Below are positions 20,294-29,243 of a stretch of 64,000 nucleotides of DNA, one piece after another (position 1 is the first letter of the stretch; every line of letters begins with the position of its first letter). The notes beneath the pieces were generated by a model. That model was not told the DNA's origin. It ran no database searches and saw only the letters and a program-made list of their open reading frames with translations. The translations under genes and the position numbers were made by a program. Source of the DNA: Clostridium brassicae (GTDB taxonomy: Bacteria > Bacillota > Clostridia > Clostridiales > Clostridiaceae); assembly GCF_026738875.1 (NCBI RefSeq), contig NZ_JAPQFJ010000002.1, positions 62,001 through 126,000 on the forward strand. Reading direction: 5' to 3'.

Positions 20294-21640
20294 ATGAGTA
20301 GATTATTCGGAACAGATGGAGTTAGAGGAATAGCCAATAAAGAGTTAACAGCAGACCTTGCATATAAACTAGGAAGAGCAGGAGCATTTGTGCTTACAGA
20401 AGGGGCTCATAAGCCTAAAATATTAGTAGGTATGGATACAAGAGTATCAGGAGATATGTTAGAGTCAGCTCTTGTAGCAGGAATATTATCAGTAGGTGCA
20501 GAAGCAATTTGTGTTGGGATTGTTCCAACACCGGCTATAGCTTATCTTACAAGAAAGTATAAGGCAGATGCAGGTGTTGTTATATCTGCTTCACATAATC
20601 CAGTAGAATATAATGGGATAAAATTTTTTAATAGTCAAGGATATAAACTTAAGGATGAACTAGAAGATAGAATTCAAAGTGTAATAGAAAGTGATTTTAA
20701 GGGGGTTCCATCACCTATAGGGGAGGAACTTGGCAGAAAAGTAATTGAAGATGGAGCAATAGAGGACTATATAGAATTTGCAAAATCTACAATAGATGTA
20801 GATTTAAAGGGCCTTAAGGTTGCTCTTGATTGCGCAAATGGAGCATCTTATGAAACATCTGTTGAAACTTTTAGAGAGCTTGGTGCAGAGGTCGTAGTTA
20901 TAAATAATGACCCAGATGGAGTAAACATTAATAAAAATTGTGGATCAACTCATCCAGAAGAGTTAATGGATTATGTAGTTAAAAAAGGTTGTGATTTAGG
21001 ACTTGCCTTCGATGGAGATGCAGATAGATGTCTTGCAGTAGATGAAAAAGGAAATCTTATAGATGGTGATTTTATAATTGCAATATGTGCAAAACATTTA
21101 AAAGAAGAAGGTAAGCTTAAAGATAATATGGCAGTTGTAACTGTAATGAGTAATTTAGGACTTGATATTGCTTTTAAAAAAGAAGGAATATCAACAATAA
21201 AAACTAAAGTAGGGGACAGATATGTTCTTGAAGAGATGGTGAAAGATGGGTATGTACTGGGCGGAGAACAATCAGGACATGTAATATTCTTAGACTTTAA
21301 TACAACAGGAGATGGACTTGTAACTGGCTTACAGGTTGCCTCAATTGTAAAGAAAAGCGGAAAGAAATTATCAGATTTAGCTTCAATTATGACAAAGCTT
21401 CCACAAGTTTTAGTAAATGCAAAAATACCTAATGATAAAAAAGATATACATGAAAAAGACGAAGAGATTATAGCAGAAATAAAGAAAATGGAAGCCAAAT
21501 TAGATGGTTGTGGAAGAGTGCTGATAAGACCTTCAGGGACAGAACCATTAGTTAGAGTTATGCTTGAAGGGAAAAATCAAGAAGAATTAGATACTATGGC
21601 ACATGCTCTTGCAGAGTTAATTGAGAAAAAAGCAAATTAA
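20294..21640 (+). CDS. glmM: Phosphoglucosamine mutase
   Basis: GlmM converts glucosamine-6-phosphate to glucosamine-1-phosphate for UDP-GlcNAc and peptidoglycan synthesis. The 448-residue protein has the usual length and starts [12 protein letters not shown]. Its phosphoserine loop is ISASHNP (S100), the magnesium site is FDGDADR (about 240) and the sugar-phosphate loop is RPSGTEP near the end. GTGAGG precedes the ATG. It lies upstream of glmS, which makes its substrate, but a terminator and a new promoter separate them. Confidence 0.97.
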
Positions 21641-21772: not shown

Positions 21773-21801
21773 TTGACGTATAATATATTGTCAAATATAA
21801 T
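21773..21801 (+). promoter_or_regulatory. Promoter of glmS
   Basis: TTGACG (21773-21778), a 17-bp spacer and TATAAT (21796-21801) form a near-perfect sigma-A promoter. The start would be near 21808, about 55 nt before the ribozyme cleavage site. Confidence 0.82.
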
Positions 21802-21861
21802 ATTAAGGAAGCTTGTAAGTAATATACTTTTAGTCGAAAGGGGGACAGGTAGTTACAATAA

Positions 21862-22316
21862 AAGCGCCAGAACTTAAGTAGAGTCAATAAAATCAATTCT
21901 GTTTAGGTTAACGCCTGGCTGAGTTGGTATTGGTTAAAAGGAAACTCAAGTTAACACTTGAGTAAGTTCGTCTAACCAAATCATAGATTTTTAGGAAAAT
22001 AAAGGAACTCCACAGCATAGCTGAGGAGTAAGCGACCATTACAAAATCAAAGATTTAGAGGAATAAAGGAAACTCAAGTTAACACTTGAGTAAGTTCGTC
22101 TAACCAAATCACAGATTTGGAGAGGAAAAAGGAAACTCAAGTTAATACTTGAGTAAGTTCGTCTAACCAAATCATAGATTTGGAGACTCACTTAAGTTGA
22201 CGAGGTTGGGGAGTATCGAGGATTCGGCGGATGCCCTACGGTAAGGTACTACCGTTAGAGACTAGTAAAGCTGAAAAGTGATTTTTAGTACAAATCTAGT
22301 TGGGTACTGTATGTAT
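21862..22316 (+). ncRNA. glmS ribozyme with a repeat-filled P1 helix
   Basis: The conserved core is clear. AAGCGCCAGAAC begins the ribozyme, with cleavage expected between A21863 and G21864. P1 is formed by AACTTAAGT and GAGTC (21871-21885) pairing with GACTC and ACTTAAGTT (22185-22198). TGACGAGG, TATCGAGG, TTCGGCGGATGCCCT, the P3 stem CGGTA/TACCG and the P4 arm with GTAAA...GTGA follow. It senses glucosamine-6-phosphate and cuts its own mRNA, lowering GlmS. Unusually, about 300 nt lie inside P1, mostly four tandem 64-bp repeats. The 3' boundary is approximate. Confidence 0.93.
21937..22190 (+). repeat. Four tandem 64-bp hairpin repeats inside ribozyme P1
   Basis: Units begin AAAGGAA(A)CTC at 21937, 22001, 22065 and 22128 (spacing 64, 64, 63). 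Units 1, 3 and 4 are almost identical, each with hairpin ACTCAAGT-TAAC-ACTTGAGT (TAAT loop in unit 4), a linker GTTCGTCTAACC and hairpin CCAAATC/GATTTGG (partly opened in unit 1). Unit 2 has a different first stem, CTCC..AGC/GCT..GGAG, yet the same shape, indicating selection on structure. Confidence 0.85.
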
Positions 22317-22504
22317 GATTAAATATAAGCTTCTTTTTAATAAACAGGAATCTAGGCTTAAGATGATATTTTTATTTCATTTGAAGGCTAGAATCCATTA
22401 TCCAGGGTCGTAGCCATCTTAACTTAAACTTTTAAATAAGATTGGAGTTTTAGGGTGGGGAGACATTGGATAAATTCTATGATTACTAAAAGGAGAGCAT
22501 GATT
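22317..22504 (+). other. Leader between ribozyme and glmS
   Basis: This part holds a hairpin of GGAATCTAG (from 22348) with CTAGAATCC (to about 22397) but no U tract, and then the AGGAG ribosome site at 22491-22495. After ribozyme cleavage this leader would remain on the mRNA. Confidence 0.4.
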
Positions 22505-24331
22505 ATGTGTGGAATAGTAGGATATTTAGGAAAAAATAGAGCAGCAGATATTTTAATAGATGGTTTATCAAAGTTAGAGTATAGAGGATATGATTCGGCT
22601 GGAGTAGCTATTATTGAAAACAGTGATATAGATGTTAACAAGTGTAAGGGAAGACTTGCAAATTTACAAGAGAAGCTTAAAGAACATGTTTTAGATGGAA
22701 AGATAGGTATAGGTCATACAAGATGGGCAACTCATGGTGAACCATCTGATGTAAATTCTCATCCTCATACTAATGAAAGTGGTACTATAGCTGTAGTACA
22801 CAATGGGATTATTGAAAATTATCTTGTTTTAAGAGAATGGTTGTCATCAGAAGGATATAAATTTGTTTCAGAAACAGACACAGAAGTTATACCTCATCTT
22901 GTAGACTATTATTATGAAGGTGACCTTTTAGATGCTGTAATGAAAGCAGTTAAAAGAATGGAAGGTAGTTATGCTATAGGTGTAATTTGCAAAGATGAAC
23001 CAAATAAACTTATAGCTGTTAGAAAAGATAGTCCATTAATTGTAGGTGTAGGTAAGGATGAAAGCTTTATAGCTTCAGATATACCAGCAGTTTTAAATTA
23101 CACAAGAGATGTATATTTACTTGAAGATAATGAATTTGTACTTATCGAAGATAAGGGAATAACTATATTAGATGAAAATAAGAAAAAGGTAGAAAAAGAA
23201 ATTTATCATGTAACATGGAATGCAGATGCTGCTGAAAAAGGTGGATATGAACACTTTATGTTAAAAGAAATTCATGAGCAGCCAAAAGCTATAAAAGATA
23301 CTTTAACTTCAAGAGTTGTTAAAGGACAAAAAATAAATTTAGATAGCATCAATATAACAAAAGAACAAATTCAAGATATAGATAAGATATATATAGTTGC
23401 ATGTGGAACTGCATATCATGCAGGATTAGTAGGAAAAACTGCTATAGAGAAGTTGGCTAAAGTACCAGTTGAAGTTGAAGTTGCTTCAGAATTTAGATAT
23501 AGAGAACCATTGATTAACGAAAGAACTTTAATGATTGTTATAAGCCAATCAGGAGAAACAGCAGATACTCTTGCTGCATTAAGATTAGCTAAAGCTGAAA
23601 ATGCTAGAGTTATAGCTGTTACAAATGTAGTTGGAAGTTCAGTTTCAAGAGAAGCAGATGATGTTTTATACACATGGGCAGGACCAGAAATTGCAGTAGC
23701 TTCAACTAAAGCTTATGTAACTCAGCTTATAGCAATGTATATAATAGCTTTATACTTTGCGGAAAATAAAGGGTCTATTAGACAATCAGAAATAGATAAG
23801 ATTAAATGCGGATTATTAAATCTTTCAGAAGAAGCTGCAGAAGTATTAAATCAAAAAGATATTATAAAAGACTTTGCGAAGAAAATTTGTAACGATAAGG
23901 ATATGTATTTCTTAGGAAGAGGGCTTGACTATGCTGTTGCTTTGGAAGGTTCATTAAAGCTTAAGGAGATATCTTATATACATTCAGAGGCATATGCAGG
24001 TGGAGAATTAAAACATGGACCAATTGCTTTAATAGAAAAAGGAACAAAGGTAATAGCACTTGCAACTCAAGAACATTTATTTGACAAGATGTTAAGTAAT
24101 ATAAAAGAAGTTAAAACAAGAGGTGCTAATGTTATAGCTATTGCTATGGAAGGACATGATGTAATAGAGAAAACAGTTGATTCAGCAATATATATACCAA
24201 GAGTTAAATCTTTATTAGCTCCAATACTTTCAGTTATTCCTCTTCAATTGTTATCTTATTATGTTTCAATTGAAAAAGGATGCGACGTAGATAAACCAAG
24301 GAATTTAGCAAAATCAGTAACGGTTGAATAA
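22505..24331 (+). CDS. glmS: Glutamine-fructose-6-phosphate aminotransferase
   Basis: GlmS makes glucosamine-6-phosphate from fructose-6-phosphate and glutamine, the first step of UDP-GlcNAc synthesis. The start at 22505 gives MCGIVGYLG, so that after loss of Met the catalytic cysteine is N-terminal, as the mechanism requires; an ATG two codons earlier would add MI. Length is 608 residues. The glutaminase domain (GHTRWATHG) is followed by two SIS domains (SQSGETADT; the C-terminal end reads DKPRNLAKSVTVE). A glmS ribozyme controls it. The 3' end is the attachment site for the Tn7-like element 20 bp beyond the stop. Confidence 0.98.
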   Translation: MCGIVGYLGKNRAADILIDGLSKLEYRGYDSAGVAIIENSDIDVNKCKGRLANLQEKLKEHVLDGKIGIGHTRWATHGEPSDVNSHPHTNESGTIAVVHNGIIENYLVLREWLSSEGYKFVSETDTEVIPHLVDYYYEGDLLDAVMKAVKRMEGSYAIGVICKDEPNKLIAVRKDSPLIVGVGKDESFIASDIPAVLNYTRDVYLLEDNEFVLIEDKGITILDENKKKVEKEIYHVTWNADAAEKGGYEHFMLKEIHEQPKAIKDTLTSRVVKGQKINLDSINITKEQIQDIDKIYIVACGTAYHAGLVGKTAIEKLAKVPVEVEVASEFRYREPLINERTLMIVISQSGETADTLAALRLAKAENARVIAVTNVVGSSVSREADDVLYTWAGPEIAVASTKAYVTQLIAMYIIALYFAENKGSIRQSEIDKIKCGLLNLSEEAAEVLNQKDIIKDFAKKICNDKDMYFLGRGLDYAVALEGSLKLKEISYIHSEAYAGGELKHGPIALIEKGTKVIALATQEHLFDKMLSNIKEVKTRGANVIAIAMEGHDVIEKTVDSAIYIPRVKSLLAPILSVIPLQLLSYYVSIEKGCDVDKPRNLAKSVTVE

Positions 24332-24360: not shown

Positions 24361-24440
24361 GTTTGAAAAAAAGTTAAACTATTTGAAAAAAAGTCAAACC
24401 GTTTGGAAAAAAGTTAAATCATTTGTAAAAAAGTTGAATC
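24361..24440 (+). repeat. Right-end TnsB sites: four abutting 20-bp repeats
   Basis: The 20-bp units at 24361, 24381, 24401 and 24421 follow (A/G)TTTGNAAAAAAGT(T/C)(A/G)A(A)(C/T). The first and second are closest to the terminal inverted repeat. In Tn7 the right end likewise has four overlapping TnsB sites. Confidence 0.9.
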
Positions 24441-24463
24441 AAAATAATAATTAGATATATACT
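24434..24463 (+). promoter_or_regulatory. Possible tnsA promoter overlapping the fourth TnsB site
   Basis: TTGAAT (24434-24439, inside TnsB site 4), an 18-bp spacer and TATACT (24458-24463). If real, TnsB bound to the end would repress its own operon, as known for Tn7. An imperfect palindrome (24457-24467 with 24476-24486, 10 of 11 pairs) covers the -10 box. Confidence 0.45.
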
Positions 24464-24511
24464 ATACCTAGAGAAGTATAGTGTATAAATAATAAAAGAA
24501 TATAAAAGTAC

Positions 24512-24563
24512 AAAGACTATGCACTCTCATTTATTTAGAGATTGTGTAGTCTTTATTTTTTAG
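24512..24563 (+). terminator. Terminator between glmS and tnsA
   Basis: AAAGACTATGCA...CTCT (24512-24527) pairs with AGAG...TGTGTAGTCTTT (24537-24554), followed by ATTTTTTA and then directly by the tnsA ribosome site. It would stop read-through from glmS, whose own terminator was displaced by the insertion; it may also attenuate tns expression. Confidence 0.75.
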
Positions 24564-24575
24564 GGGTGTATTAAA

Positions 24576-25412
24576 ATGGCTAAAAGAAAAAGAAGTATAA
24601 ATATAGATAAAATGATTAAAGAAGGACGAGGACAGGGTAGTGGATCAGAATATAAGCCTTGGATTAAGATACAAGATGTACCATCATTGGGTAGAGTCAC
24701 AAGATTAAAAGGCATAAAAACGAAAAGACAACATGAGTTTTTATCAGATATGGAAAGAAACTACTTTTATTTTTTGGAATTTTCAGATTCAGTAGCAGAC
24801 ATAAGGGAACAATTCCCATTATTACCATTAGAAGACACTATCCTTATAGCAGAAGAATTAGGATTAGAGCATCCTAAAAACCCTACAACTGGTGAATTTA
24901 TAGTTATAACTACAGATTTTTTTATAAATATAAAAAATAATAATGAATTTTATGAGGTTGCAAGAACAATAAAAGCAAAAGATGAGCTTATGAATAGAAG
25001 GATATTAGAAAAGTTTGAAATTGAGAGAATGTATTGGAAAAAGAGAAATATAGATTGGGGTATAGTTACAGAAAATGAAATAGATAAAATTATAGCTAAT
25101 AATATAAGCTTTGTTCATGCTTATAATGATATAACACATTTAGATTGTTTTAATGAAATAAATAAAATAGATCTTCAAGATTTAGTATATGAGTTTATAA
25201 AAAGAATATTAGATAGTAACAGGGGTATGAGAACTATTTGTAGTCAGTTTGATAATGATATGAGTTTAGAAAAGGGAAGTGGATTAAGTATTTTTAAATA
25301 TTTAATCATTAATAAAATTATCAATATAGATATAACTGAAAAAATAGATATTAATAATATAGTTCCAGTTAGCGTAAAGGAAGAATCGATTAAAAAGGTG
25401 GGAGTAATATGA
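24576..25412 (+). CDS. tnsA: TnsA, transposon 5'-end endonuclease
   Basis: TnsA cuts the 5' ends of the element so that, with TnsB, it leaves by cut-and-paste. The 278-residue protein matches Tn7 TnsA in length and in the nuclease motifs: E60 in DMERNYFYFLEF, the IREQFPLLP strand, D114 in TTDFF, K133 in TIKAKD, and E150 in EKFEIERMYW. The C-terminal half is the winged-helix region. The stop overlaps the tnsB start by 4 bp. Preceded by AGGGGTG. Confidence 0.95.
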   Translation: MAKRKRSINIDKMIKEGRGQGSGSEYKPWIKIQDVPSLGRVTRLKGIKTKRQHEFLSDMERNYFYFLEFSDSVADIREQFPLLPLEDTILIAEELGLEHPKNPTTGEFIVITTDFFINIKNNNEFYEVARTIKAKDELMNRRILEKFEIERMYWKKRNIDWGIVTENEIDKIIANNISFVHAYNDITHLDCFNEINKIDLQDLVYEFIKRILDSNRGMRTICSQFDNDMSLEKGSGLSIFKYLIINKIINIDITEKIDINNIVPVSVKEESIKKVGVI

Positions 25413-27562
25413 TAGCAATTAATTCTGTGTTTAAGTGTATAGGGGATAAACGAATCAGAATTATAGATATTATAAATGAGTTTGTGTATGTAGTAGATAT
25501 AGATGCTTCTACATCAATGCCACAAAAAGAACTTATAAAAACAATTGAAGAAGAAATGGATTGTGAAAAATTAATTTTAATTAAAGATCCTTTTGCAAAA
25601 ATAATTGATGAAGCTACTCTGTCAAAGGTTCAGACTTACAAGAGAGAAGAGGATTGGGATTTTATTTTAAAGTACTTAGAAGTAAATAAACGAAAACTTT
25701 TAGAAAAGAGTACAAGAAATGATACTCTTAAAGAAATAGCTGATTCAAGTGGCTTAAGTTTAAGTAAAGTTAAGAAAGTATTTAGTAGGTATTGGCAAAG
25801 AGGGATGAATAAAAATTCTTTGCTACCTGATTATAAAAATTCGGGTGGAAAGGGAAAAGATAAGAGTTTATCAAAAAATAAGGTTGGTAGACCTAAAAGA
25901 GTGAATTATAATGGTGAAATTATTGAAGGTATAAATATAACTGACGATGTTAAAACACATTTTCAAATTGTCATAAATAAATATTATAGAAATAAAAAGA
26001 AAATATCTTTAAAAGAAACCTATACCCTGATGTTAAGAGATTTTTATTCAGATAGCTATATAGAAGATAATGAAATAAAGCACAAAGTATGGGATGAATC
26101 AAGAATCCCAACTTATGATCAATTCTACTATTGGTTTAAAAAGTTAGAAGATCCTAAAAAGGATATTATTTTAAGAAACAGTTCAAAGGAATTTGAATTA
26201 AAGAACAGGCCAATACTAAGTAATTCTACAATAGAAACTAATGGACCTGGTACAAGATTTCAAATAGATGCAACTATAGCAGATATATATATAGTAAGTT
26301 CTTTAAACAGAAACAGGATAATTGGAAGACCGGTAGTATATGCAATTATAGATGTTTTTTCAAGATTAATTACAGGAATTTATGTAGGATTAGAAGGACC
26401 TTCTTGGATTGGAGCTATGATGGCTTTAGATAATATGATATCAGATAAAGTTGAGTTTTGTAAAAAATATAATGTTGAAATAACGGAAGAACAATGGCCT
26501 TCAAAACATTTGCCAGAAATAATTATTGCTGATAGAGGAGAATTTGAAGGATATTCTGTAGAAAATTTAATTAATAATTTGAATGTAAAAATAGAGAACA
26601 CATCTCCATACAGAGGAGATCTAAAAGGAATAGTGGAAAGAAATTTTAGAACAATTAATACAAAGATAAAGCATAAAGCCCCTGGAGCCATACAAAAGGA
26701 ATTTAGAGAAAGAGGAGATAGAGATTATAGATTAGATGCAACTCTTACTTTAGAGGAATTTACAACTATAGTTATAAAAATGGTAATCTATCATAATAAC
26801 AAAATGATAGATAAATATCCTATGGAAAAAGAAATGATTAAAGATGAGGTAACGCCAATACCTATAAAACTTTGGAGTTGGGGAATAGAAAATAAGAAAG
26901 GAAGATTAAGAGTTGTTGATTCAGAAAAATTTAGATTAAATATATTACCAAAAGGAAAAGGGAGCGTATCAAGAGCTGGAATAAGATTTAAAAATTTATA
27001 CTATGGTTCTAAGAAAGCTATAGAAGAACAATGGTTTATAAAATCAAAAGTTAGAAGTATAGAGATAGTTTATGACCCAAGAAATATGAATCAAATATAT
27101 ATTCCTTATGGGAATGGGATGGACTACGAAAAGTGTTATCTTTTAGAAGGCAGTACGCAATATAAGGATTGTATATTAGAAGAAATTATATTTAATGAAG
27201 AATTATCTTCGGAGCTAAAGGAACGGGAAAAAAATAAGCAAACTCAAATTAATATAGATTTAGATAAAGAAATAGAAAAAATAGTTAAAAAGGCTCAAAA
27301 GGAAAAACAGAAGTTTGTAAGTTATGATGAAAGTAAAAATAAAAAGTTAAAGGGAATAAGGAATAATAAAGCAGTTGAAAAGGAGATAAATAGGGTAGCT
27401 GAGTCATTTGATTTAGGAGAAGATAAGAAAGAATATAAAGAAAAGAATACAGTAATTGAATTACCTATAAATAAAGATAAACATAAATCTAATGAACTCA
27501 CTGGAAAGGCTAGGTTAATGGAAAAGTTAAGACAGAAAAGAGATGAGAAGCGTGAAAAATAA
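25409..27562 (+). CDS. tnsB: TnsB, DDE transposase
   Basis: TnsB binds the end repeats, cuts the 3' ends and joins them to target DNA. The 717-residue protein has D287 (FQIDATIADIY), D375 (IIADRGEFEG) and E410 (LKGIVERNFR). The intervals of 88 and 35 residues equal those of Tn7 TnsB (D273, D361, E396). An N-terminal helix-turn-helix part (about 85-135) and a basic C-terminal tail that would contact TnsC are visible. It overlaps tnsA by 4 bp and tnsC by 20 bp. Confidence 0.97.
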   Translation: MIAINSVFKCIGDKRIRIIDIINEFVYVVDIDASTSMPQKELIKTIEEEMDCEKLILIKDPFAKIIDEATLSKVQTYKREEDWDFILKYLEVNKRKLLEKSTRNDTLKEIADSSGLSLSKVKKVFSRYWQRGMNKNSLLPDYKNSGGKGKDKSLSKNKVGRPKRVNYNGEIIEGINITDDVKTHFQIVINKYYRNKKKISLKETYTLMLRDFYSDSYIEDNEIKHKVWDESRIPTYDQFYYWFKKLEDPKKDIILRNSSKEFELKNRPILSNSTIETNGPGTRFQIDATIADIYIVSSLNRNRIIGRPVVYAIIDVFSRLITGIYVGLEGPSWIGAMMALDNMISDKVEFCKKYNVEITEEQWPSKHLPEIIIADRGEFEGYSVENLINNLNVKIENTSPYRGDLKGIVERNFRTINTKIKHKAPGAIQKEFRERGDRDYRLDATLTLEEFTTIVIKMVIYHNNKMIDKYPMEKEMIKDEVTPIPIKLWSWGIENKKGRLRVVDSEKFRLNILPKGKGSVSRAGIRFKNLYYGSKKAIEEQWFIKSKVRSIEIVYDPRNMNQIYIPYGNGMDYEKCYLLEGSTQYKDCILEEIIFNEELSSELKEREKNKQTQINIDLDKEIEKIVKKAQKEKQKFVSYDESKNKKLKGIRNNKAVEKEINRVAESFDLGEDKKEYKEKNTVIELPINKDKHKSNELTGKARLMEKLRQKRDEKREK

Positions 27563-29243
27563 TGAAAATATTATAATTCTTAAAGGGGATACAGAAAAAG
27601 CAAATTATAAAACACAGATTATACAGGAATATTCAAATAATCCATTTATAGAAGCATTACCTAATATATTTTCTGAAGATGATGTTATCGATAGATTTAG
27701 TGTTATACCACGAATTGATGAAAAAGATAGGAACATGGAATCTAATTTAAGATATCACATAATAAAAAGAGCTAAAAACTTTGTTCAACCATTACCAGTA
27801 CATTTCACTGTAGAAAGGAGGTTGTCAGCACTTATTAGAAGGGGATACTTGGCTAGAAATCCTTTAAATAAAAGTTATTTTGAAAGATTAAGGATATTAA
27901 ACGAACTTAGAGATGATAAAGTATATGACAATACCTTATTAGAAGAAAGAATGAGTAATATACGCTCTACTGCAGACAGTTTAGCTATAATAGGTATTTC
28001 AGGTATAGGAAAAACCACAGCTATAGAAAGATTGTTGGTTATGTATCCTCAAATAATAAAACATGAAGAGTATAACGGAGAAAATTTTAGTAGAACCCAA
28101 ATAGTATGGTTAAAAATAGATTGTCCCTACGATGGTAGCTTATCTACTTTATGTAAAAGTTTTTTTAAAGCTATTGATGATTTACTTGGAACTAGGTATT
28201 TAGAGAAGTTTGGATATGCTAATAGAGTAACATCAACTATGATGCTACATATGACTTCACTTGCTAGTATTTATGGTATAGGAGTTTTAGTTATAGATGA
28301 AATACAACATTTACTAAATTCTAAAAATGATATGGAAGAAATGCTAAACTTTTTTGTTACATTAAGTAATACAGTAGGAGTACCAACAGTACTAATTGGA
28401 ACATCCAAAGCACAAAAAATATTTAAAGGCAATTTTAGACAAGCAAGAAGAGCAGCCAGTGAAGGTGCAATAATGTGGGATAGAATGGATAAAGAAAGTG
28501 ATGAATGGAATTTCTTTTTAGAAACATTGTGGGATTTTCAATGTTTGAAAGAAAACACAGTATTAACAGATGAAATAAAAAATGCTTTCTATGATGAATG
28601 CCAAGGGATAACAGCAGTGGCAGTAAATTTATTTATACTTGCTCAGGAAAGAGCTTTAAGTGAAGAAAGAGAAAAGATAACCGTGAACATCTTAAGAACT
28701 ACAGCCAAAGAAGATCTACACATGATTCAACCTATGATAAAGGCTCTTAGAAATAATAATATGGTTGAAGTTATGAAATATGAGGATATATCAATAAATT
28801 TAGATGATATATCAATTAATTATAAGAAAGATATTGAGTTAATAGGAAGATTAGAAAAATCTTTTAAAGAGAGAAATAATACCATTGAACTTAAAAGAAG
28901 AAATACTGTAGAGAACTTAGTTATGGATTTATCTTCAATAGGTATATTTGAAGAACTAGATAATATTGAAATTAAAAAATTAGCCGAAAAGCTAGCAGAA
29001 AAGGTAGCAGTAGATCAAGATTATAATTTAATAAAAACTATGGCTATAAAGACAGCAATGGAGATTAATGAAAAGAAAAAAATAGATAGAAAAATAAAAG
29101 AGAATAAAGAAAATAAAAAACAAAATGAAGGATTGTTAGCTTTATTTGAAATAGCAAAAAAGAATAAAAAACATCCATATGAAGTATTAAAAAAAGAAGG
29201 ATATATTAAGAATCCAATCGATGAATTTTTAATGGCAAAATAA
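27543..29243 (+). CDS. tnsC: TnsC, AAA+ regulator of transposition
   Basis: TnsC is the ATP-dependent adaptor that links the target selector (TnsD or TnsE) to the TnsAB transposase and provides target immunity. The 566-residue protein has Walker A GISGIGKTT (151-159), Walker B VLVIDEIQHL (D252, E253) and a sensor strand VLIGTSKA. Its C-terminal 150 residues are helical and lysine-rich, matching the TnsAB-binding tail. The start codon is within the 3' end of tnsB, so translation is coupled. Confidence 0.95.
   Translation: MRSVKNNENIIILKGDTEKANYKTQIIQEYSNNPFIEALPNIFSEDDVIDRFSVIPRIDEKDRNMESNLRYHIIKRAKNFVQPLPVHFTVERRLSALIRRGYLARNPLNKSYFERLRILNELRDDKVYDNTLLEERMSNIRSTADSLAIIGISGIGKTTAIERLLVMYPQIIKHEEYNGENFSRTQIVWLKIDCPYDGSLSTLCKSFFKAIDDLLGTRYLEKFGYANRVTSTMMLHMTSLASIYGIGVLVIDEIQHLLNSKNDMEEMLNFFVTLSNTVGVPTVLIGTSKAQKIFKGNFRQARRAASEGAIMWDRMDKESDEWNFFLETLWDFQCLKENTVLTDEIKNAFYDECQGITAVAVNLFILAQERALSEEREKITVNILRTTAKEDLHMIQPMIKALRNNNMVEVMKYEDISINLDDISINYKKDIELIGRLEKSFKERNNTIELKRRNTVENLVMDLSSIGIFEELDNIEIKKLAEKLAEKVAVDQDYNLIKTMAIKTAMEINEKKKIDRKIKENKENKKQNEGLLALFEIAKKNKKHPYEVLKKEGYIKNPIDEFLMAK

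Follow-up and report, generated by a model that had tools for sequence, protein, structure and literature searches.

Results

A glmS ribozyme with an interrupted P1 helix in Clostridium brassicae

We analyzed a window of 64,000 nucleotides from Clostridium brassicae (contig NZ_JAPQFJ010000002.1, positions 62,001 to 126,000 of the forward strand; coordinates refer to its first letter unless another genome or locus is named), in which glmM (20294-21640) is followed by a glmS ribozyme spanning 21863-22312 (Rfam RF00234) and then by glmS (Table 1). The RF00234 covariance model aligned to 22135-22312 with 72.5 bits against a cut-off of 37, the sole match at the gathering threshold in the window, thereby confirming the intact catalytic core claimed in the original prediction. 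Due to a 299-nt insert, the model mis-threads the 5' strand and places it inside the last repeat, the actual ribozyme 5' strand being located at 21860-21885 (AAAAGCGCC, AG, AACUUAAGU-A-GAGUC). This strand carries the AGCGCC expected of a glmS ribozyme, with the cleavage-site motif AAA↓GCGCC positioned at 21863/21864, where we take the exact cleaved bond to be the one known from the glmS literature. P1 is closed by pairing of AACUUAAGU-A-GAGUC with GACUC-ACUUAAGUU, directly 5' of GACGAGG, and the whole lies upstream of glmS, as is typical of these ribozymes, the P1 loop of which is dispensable in vitro. Between 21700 and 22340, no other Rfam family was found at E≤1 beyond glmS and two chance-level matches (E 0.69 and 0.95).

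Table 1. Features of the glmS ribozyme region, in coordinates of the window
Feature	Position	Strand	Basis or remark
Sigma-70-type promoter-like site TTGACG-17-TATAAT upstream of the ribozyme	21773..21801	+	11/12 matches, consensus match only
glmS cleavage-site motif A↓GCGCC and ribozyme start	21863..21870	+	Sequence; relatives carry the same motif
P1 helix 5' strand AACUUAAGU-A-GAGUC, includes CTTAAG	21871..21885	+	
Extra 50-nt hairpin 5' of the array	21885..21935	+	Fold z -2.93; similar sequence in sister genome G006 (L035)
Unit 1: hairpin A (ACTC...GAGT) and hairpin B (AAATC-nnA-GATTT)	21936..21999	+	R1 model, with unit 1 in its training set
Unit 2: divergent, other hairpin A stem	22000..22063	+	
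Unit 3	22064..22126	+	
Unit 4: hairpin B arm GACUCACUU merges with the P1 3' strand	22127..22189	+	
P1 helix 3' strand GACUC-ACUUAAGUU, includes CTTAAG	22185..22198	+	
glmS ribozyme core and 3' domains, from GACGAGG	22199..22312	+	RF00234 alignment
glmS gene, 610 aa, SIS and GATase domains, downstream of the ribozyme	22499..24331	+	

Sigma-70-type consensus matches such as the one listed upstream of the ribozyme number three in the region, against 4.1 expected in shuffles. A predicted helix of ~10 bp between 21808-21817 (GAAGCUUGUA) and 22324-22333 (UAUAAGCUUC), with a U run after it, would link the presumed transcript start to the sequence directly 3' of the ribozyme; comparable GAAGCTTGTA / TACAAGCTTC pairs are present in three other loci (L033, L034 and L029). 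Directly after glmS, the end of which is the classic Tn7 site, a Tn7-like region (24362-29243) opens with 3.7 copies of a 20-bp repeat (24362-24435), followed by genes for TnsA (N and C domains), a Mu-transposase C-terminal-domain protein in the place of TnsB and an AAA/TniB ATPase in the place of TnsC.

Four two-hairpin units occupy the tip of P1

P1 had been predicted to be split by about 300 nt holding four two-hairpin units, and the insert (21886-22184, 299 nt) indeed comprises one 50-nt hairpin, which the original prediction had left unmentioned, followed by four units of ~63 nt, detected by Tandem Repeats Finder at 21936-22186 with a period of 63 and 4.0 copies (score 285, the highest among its 17 rows for the window). 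Each unit consists of a hairpin A (ACTC...GAGT in three of the four) and a hairpin B with the core AAATC-nnA-GATTT. Units 1, 3 and 4 are 89-91% alike, unit 2 reaching 67-69% with the others; in agreement with the earlier remark on a deviating but still pairing first stem in one unit, hairpin A of unit 2 is predicted to fold despite its divergence. A 44-nt stretch of unit 2 shares 84% identity with the 16S rRNA leader of this genome. The sequence from 21855 to 22320 (466 nt) folds far better than its shuffles (z -7.9, 0/100). Read in antisense, hairpin A of units 1, 3 and 4 followed by TTTCCTTT would be terminator-like (3 found versus 0.2 expected).

P1 units in the glmS ribozymes of relatives

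Using R1, a covariance model built from 24 units, the four of the window included, we followed the unit in related genomes. The comparison of repeat number among relatives, which had been suggested together with the original prediction, revealed that the number of P1 units varies from none to four within one genus. At least one R1 match is present between cleavage site and core in 55/78 Clostridiaceae glmS loci (77 forward and 11 reverse matches), a proportion which is not a family rate since these loci were chosen partly for a long P1 or a nearby R1 match; the assumption that P1 loops of glmS ribozymes are short or modest accordingly fails, at least for the Clostridiaceae. Among 175 ribozyme-bearing genomes, at least 55 carry P1 units.

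Forward copies adjoin the P1 3' strand (...CACTTAAGTT) and reverse copies the 5' strand (AACTTAAGTG...). The minimal version consists of a lone B hairpin as P1 tip (L230), arrays of the L267 type are made of near-identical units, and the close relative G006 harbors three P1 units with partly other A stems, the last being of the GCGACC...CTGCTT type. P1 itself is kept, with at least eight contiguous pairs in 48/54 ribozymes with units and 36/50 without. CTTAAG is found in the P1 5' strand of 41/54 module-bearing versus 6/35 module-free family ribozymes (CTTAA in 14/35 of the latter) and of 0/15 ribozymes outside the family.

Two further loci showed unusual ribozyme matches. A second, sub-threshold glmS match in G006 (3512319-3512450, 26 bits) appears to result from threading of the ribozyme 5' end together with the P1 array and not from a tandem ribozyme. 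The glmS locus of C. sartagoforme (L271 / L122) lacks the cleavage-site motif in the 520 nt preceding the core; its P1 insert, in which R1 matches were detected in forward (one) and reverse (three) orientation, exceeds all others seen.

The unit is a dispersed structured repeat of the Clostridiaceae

The unit is not private to this ribozyme. A search of its own genome with the insert (E≤0.001) yielded one further place, a 16S rRNA leader, and across eight genomes of the genus (G000 to G007) R1 matches at E≤1 numbered 8, 5, 0, 7, 28, 10, 14 and 42, P1 copies included, so that seven of the eight carry units. The covariance search proposed earlier was positive in 106/187 Clostridiaceae genomes and 24/42 genera (E≤0.001), copy numbers in this family survey being lower bounds because 27 candidates at most were scored per genome. 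In a class-wide draw (E≤1e-4), 13/293 genomes had an R1 match, distributed as 11/16 in the family and 2/277 outside it, and at least 116 stretches were recovered by pattern scanning of named genomes. Among the matches listed, 69/80 loci are titled Clostridium (C. bovifaecis, C. luticellarii, C. beijerinckii, C. simiarum and C. saudiense among them), the other 11 belonging to Bacillota or Clostridiaceae MAGs, Eubacterium multiforme, Inconstantimicrobium porci and one Thermohalobacteraceae MAG.

These copies are almost always intergenic. In a set of 103 (108 R1 matches minus five partial or cut ones), the midpoint falls inside an open reading frame of at least 100 aa for two copies, compared to 77% of random points. 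A unit is present upstream of 16S in 9/187 genomes (strict pattern), and copies also lie upstream of 23S and of 5S, as well as at gene ends, where an antisense copy supplies the last codons and the stop in two cases examined. Between genes of the same direction, 41 copies are antisense and 18 sense, with some glmS copies counted. The original prediction had named wide occurrence as DNA repeats unrelated to ribozymes as the outcome that would speak against it, and for the dispersed intergenic and rRNA-spacer copies this is largely what was observed; what stood is its third guess, a small repeat element at a tolerated site, which the dispersed copies and the presence/absence sites described below support.

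Within the 55 of the 80 listed loci submitted to cmscan, units overlap only glmS matches or lie in rRNA operons, and other Rfam RNAs as hosts of the unit are therefore not supported. In L142, a unit lies next to a borderline CRISPR-DR3 match (41.6 bits, cut-off 41, E 0.19). The unit itself has no match in Rfam release 15.

Several copies lie within or beside other repeated sequences. At a similar place within a larger intergenic repeat, copies were seen in several Clostridium genomes (L128, L166, L177, L149, L155 and L139), this repeat being palindromic in L128 and L166 (AATAACAAGTCC...GGACTTGTTATT); others (L132, L146, L157, L165 and L145) lie within another conserved intergenic repeat, CATTTGAAAAT-AGCTGTTGAA ... 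GTTGTTCCA. Two copies (L156 351-424 and L158 6325-6406) occupy the loop of a CTCCCAC...GTGGGAG-like hairpin in similar surrounding sequence, perhaps, judging by resemblance, a TnpB-type guide RNA, for which no Rfam match at gathering score was found. Composite units (L084, at 794707-794793 of G007, L138, L159 and L105) carry a mini-hairpin (ACTC-aca-GAGT or GCTC-aaa-GAGT) after hairpin A and a second B hairpin after the first, as if a unit had inserted in a unit. Finally, ATGGTACGGTTCTCC or close variants are found 3' of copies in L098, L110, L134 and L154, and this sequence could be another repeat frequently located beside the unit.

Occupied and empty sites

Comparison of sites that carry the unit with sites that lack it shows the unit to behave like an insertion. 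At L079, the copy of G007 sits after the gene end ...GAACTTAAG; G002, the genome of the genus without R1 match, aligns on both sides of this copy, and its two flanks meet at ...GAACTTAAGTAG; at this one clean empty site, the two aligned pieces overlap by 2 nt. At L095, the G000 copy sits after ...AAACTTAAG, and the orthologous place is unit-free in 6/7 compared genomes (CTTAAATAA in G001, G002 and G005, CTTAAATAG in G007, CTTCAATAA in G003 and CTTAAACAA in G004), a related copy being present in G006. Similar differences were observed in 16S leaders: of eight read in G007 (taken as C. bovifaecis), three have a unit and five do not; the one readable leader of G000 has a unit, and the three read in G006 are without one. 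The empty site of this G000/G006 leader pair has no CTT.

Directly after the terminal CTT/GCT, AA or AT was found in 44/58 dispersed copies with a readable genomic flank, a count for which rows were sorted by script and by eye (twelve moved between classes by eye) and in which several sites are shared by related genomes and hence non-independent. It excludes 12 rows without a recognised end, 11 copies in glmS P1, 13 followed by another unit and nine followed by a second B hairpin. The exact CTTAAG flank is a minority (12/58). With respect to the hallmarks of a MITE, no terminal inverted repeats were seen by eye in 103 copies, and no clear target duplication was seen among the copies examined. 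The CTTA(A/T) flanks together with the enrichment of CTTAAG in module-bearing P1 stems suggest that P1 serves as a natural target. Against this stand the G000/G006 leader pair, with its empty site devoid of CTT, and the possibilities that the terminal CTT is part of the element and that CTTAAG was fixed in P1 by the units.

Within a genome, dispersed copies resemble each other more closely than they resemble those of other genomes (0.736 versus 0.653; 0/1000 permutations), which suggests spread within each lineage. In 7/8 genomes, the P1 unit is closer to foreign P1 units than to the dispersed copies of its own genome (1 to 13 per genome), suggesting that P1 copies are not fresh arrivals. Accordingly, P1 units seem to represent a long-resident lineage in which P1 pairing has in part preserved the likeness and arrays grow locally, and the family could also have started in P1.

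Both hairpins show covariation

The structural constraint postulated for the units was borne out by strong hairpin covariation, which is not specific to the ribozyme, the hairpins being kept in dispersed copies outside any ribozyme as well. In the model-fitted alignment of P1 copies (A3), 93.0% of cells are paired versus 78.9% in shuffles, with a score of 0.306 versus 0.105 (0/500). A MAFFT alignment made without the model gave 85.5% versus 73.2% and a score of 0.299 versus 0.098 (both 0/500), pairs changed on both sides (102/500) and further pair types (293/500) being not above shuffles. G-U pairs exceed A-C mismatches by 49 to 31 in P1 copies, the corresponding figures being 58 to 71 in a mixed set in which hairpin A is partly misaligned; as evidence for RNA-level constraint, this strand test was too weak and was dropped.

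Search for a mover

Y1 (IS200/IS605-type) transposase matches were detected in 7/10 genomes searched, at 22 loci, ten of them in open frames of 294-354 aa; the other three genomes (G095, G020 and G085) gave no Y1_Tnp match and each have at least 25 scored copies. Within about 1.5 kb of the 22 loci, no full unit above chance was found, the matches there being one half unit (E 0.07) and one at chance level (E 3.9). Beyond this half unit, neither the ten genomes nor the 22 locus flanks provided a link to a Y1/RAYT transposase, and this partner was rejected. The half unit is a lone B hairpin following the tnpB gene of a C. bovifaecis IS605-type element (L282 3624-3664); there, further element sequence with another hairpin comes after the B hairpin, and the IS605 right end was discarded as the source of the unit.

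Discussion

Taken together, these results suggest a model, to which we assign a probability of about 0.7, in which the unit is a REP/REPIN-like insertion element that has here grown into a tandem array in a tolerant P1 helix. The element would be Clostridiaceae-centred, non-coding and ~63-77 bp long, with hairpins A (ACTC...GAGT) and B (AAATC-nnA-GATTT), the latter often closed by AAGY...RCTT. It would insert beside CTTA(A/T), including CTTAAG, in intergenic positions, at the ends of genes and within rRNA spacers. We propose that it settled in P1 because CTTAAG occurs on both strands of many Clostridiaceae P1 stems (AACTTAAGT / ACTTAAGTT), and that the base of P1 would stay paired because the B arm of the element (AAGU...ACUU) equals the distal P1 stem sequence. 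Once in P1, it would be inherited vertically and be multiplied or lost through tandem duplication, the outcome in C. brassicae being a four-unit hairpin domain at the P1 tip that the ribozyme probably tolerates. A tolerated repeat array is the best-supported reading of this domain, as the P1 base is kept, unit number varies from none to four in the genus and the hairpins are kept without a ribozyme; judged from sequence, it is possible that the array tunes cleavage or mRNA decay. As a whole, the observation behind the original prediction is confirmed and its interpretation is partly supported.

The strong covariation of both hairpins in P1 copies, at least one R1 match in 55/78 ribozymes tested and the lineage of their own formed by P1 units could also indicate a functional accessory domain, whose copy number would tune folding, cleavage rate or stability of the 3' cleavage product, or which would bind a protein, and the excess of G-U over A-C in P1 copies is a weak hint in the same direction. 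However, the A3 alignment was fitted to the model, dispersed copies outside ribozymes keep the same hairpins, and the number of units ranges from none to four in one genus, with the three units of the sister genome G006 differing in make-up, which renders a functional domain unlikely. Growth by replication slippage of a hairpin-rich stem in P1, unrelated to a mobile element, would agree with the likeness of units 1, 3 and 4, with the near-identical units of some arrays (e.g. L267) and with the similarity of P1 units across genomes. Slippage accounts for array growth but not for the many copies elsewhere, which occur in both orientations and in some cases at sites that are empty in relatives, and as the origin of the repeats we consider it highly improbable.

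With regard to how the element moves, the unit might be a non-autonomous IS200/IS605- or REP-type element mobilized in trans by a Y1 (HUH) transposase. In this case, the subterminal palindromes would be hairpins A and B, and the target would be CTTA(A/T), which reads ATAAG/TTAAG on the complementary strand. Two hairpins, the lack of an obvious target duplication and a preferred short sequence on one flank are in line with this, as are the Y1 matches in seven of the ten genomes. Yet three genomes rich in copies have no such match, the 22 Y1 loci are not flanked by a full unit, and in C. bovifaecis the lone B hairpin after tnpB stands before more sequence of that element, so that mobilization by Y1 is at present doubtful. 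An extension of the insertion-element model that we regard as quite unlikely would see in the unit a mobile clostridial hairpin element, new to the literature searched, which uses structured RNAs (glmS P1, rRNA leaders and the stretch after IS605 tnpB) as safe harbours; its CTTAAG flank and B arms would match the P1 stem, so that each insertion would rebuild it, and array length would set ribozyme folding or the speed at which cleaved mRNA decays.

These loci form a natural series in which one ribozyme carries from none to four or more copies of one module in one helix in dozens of species, a ready-made test of what a catalytic RNA tolerates and of tuning by tip domains. The series defines a repeat family that is common in the Clostridiaceae, lacks a match in Rfam release 15 and has a preferred short flank, and it suggests that a catalytic RNA can take up a short repeat without losing the pairing at the base of the affected helix. 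Such repeats also disturb riboswitch annotation, as seen in the misplaced 5' strand in the window and in the second, weak glmS match over the G006 array.

Among known repeats, BOX is modular and RUP is IS630-related. Both are short intergenic stem-loop repeats of a Firmicutes species, Streptococcus pneumoniae, listed in a table of a 2008 survey (PMC2267715), and differ from the unit in host, the likeness being one of description. According to the relevant passages of the same survey, clostridia harbor the intergenic stem-loop families Clot-1 (C. tetani, 74 bp, 19 copies) and Clop-1 (C. perfringens, 93 bp, 44 copies), whose size, intergenic place and host fit the unit when compared by description and not by sequence; the unit may be the same as or related to them, although the passages on Clot-1 and Clop-1 do not mention glmS (PMC2267715). 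In the portions of the literature covered by our search, no description of the unit or of glmS P1 arrays was found, and newness is meant within that scope.

The likeness to REP and REPIN sequences, as these are portrayed in PMC3116915 and PMC3733652, lies in a short, hairpin-forming, intergenic repeat with many copies per genome and lineage-specific amplification. In contrast to REP/REPIN, the unit has two unlike hairpins in fixed order and a CTTA(A/T) flank; the GTAG or CGTC tag at the palindrome foot, a REP/REPIN hallmark, is absent from the 24-unit consensus, whose feet are GGAAACTC and GAGTAAG, and an association with TnpA-REP (RAYT) was not seen in the ten genomes and at the 22 Y1 loci. 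Riboswitches in general accept structured insertions at certain sites, as stated in the corresponding passage of PMC2258182. Compared to RF00234 glmS ribozymes, whose core, cleavage-site motif, place before glmS and P1 pairing are all present in C. brassicae, the P1 tip is replaced here by the four-unit, two-hairpin array.
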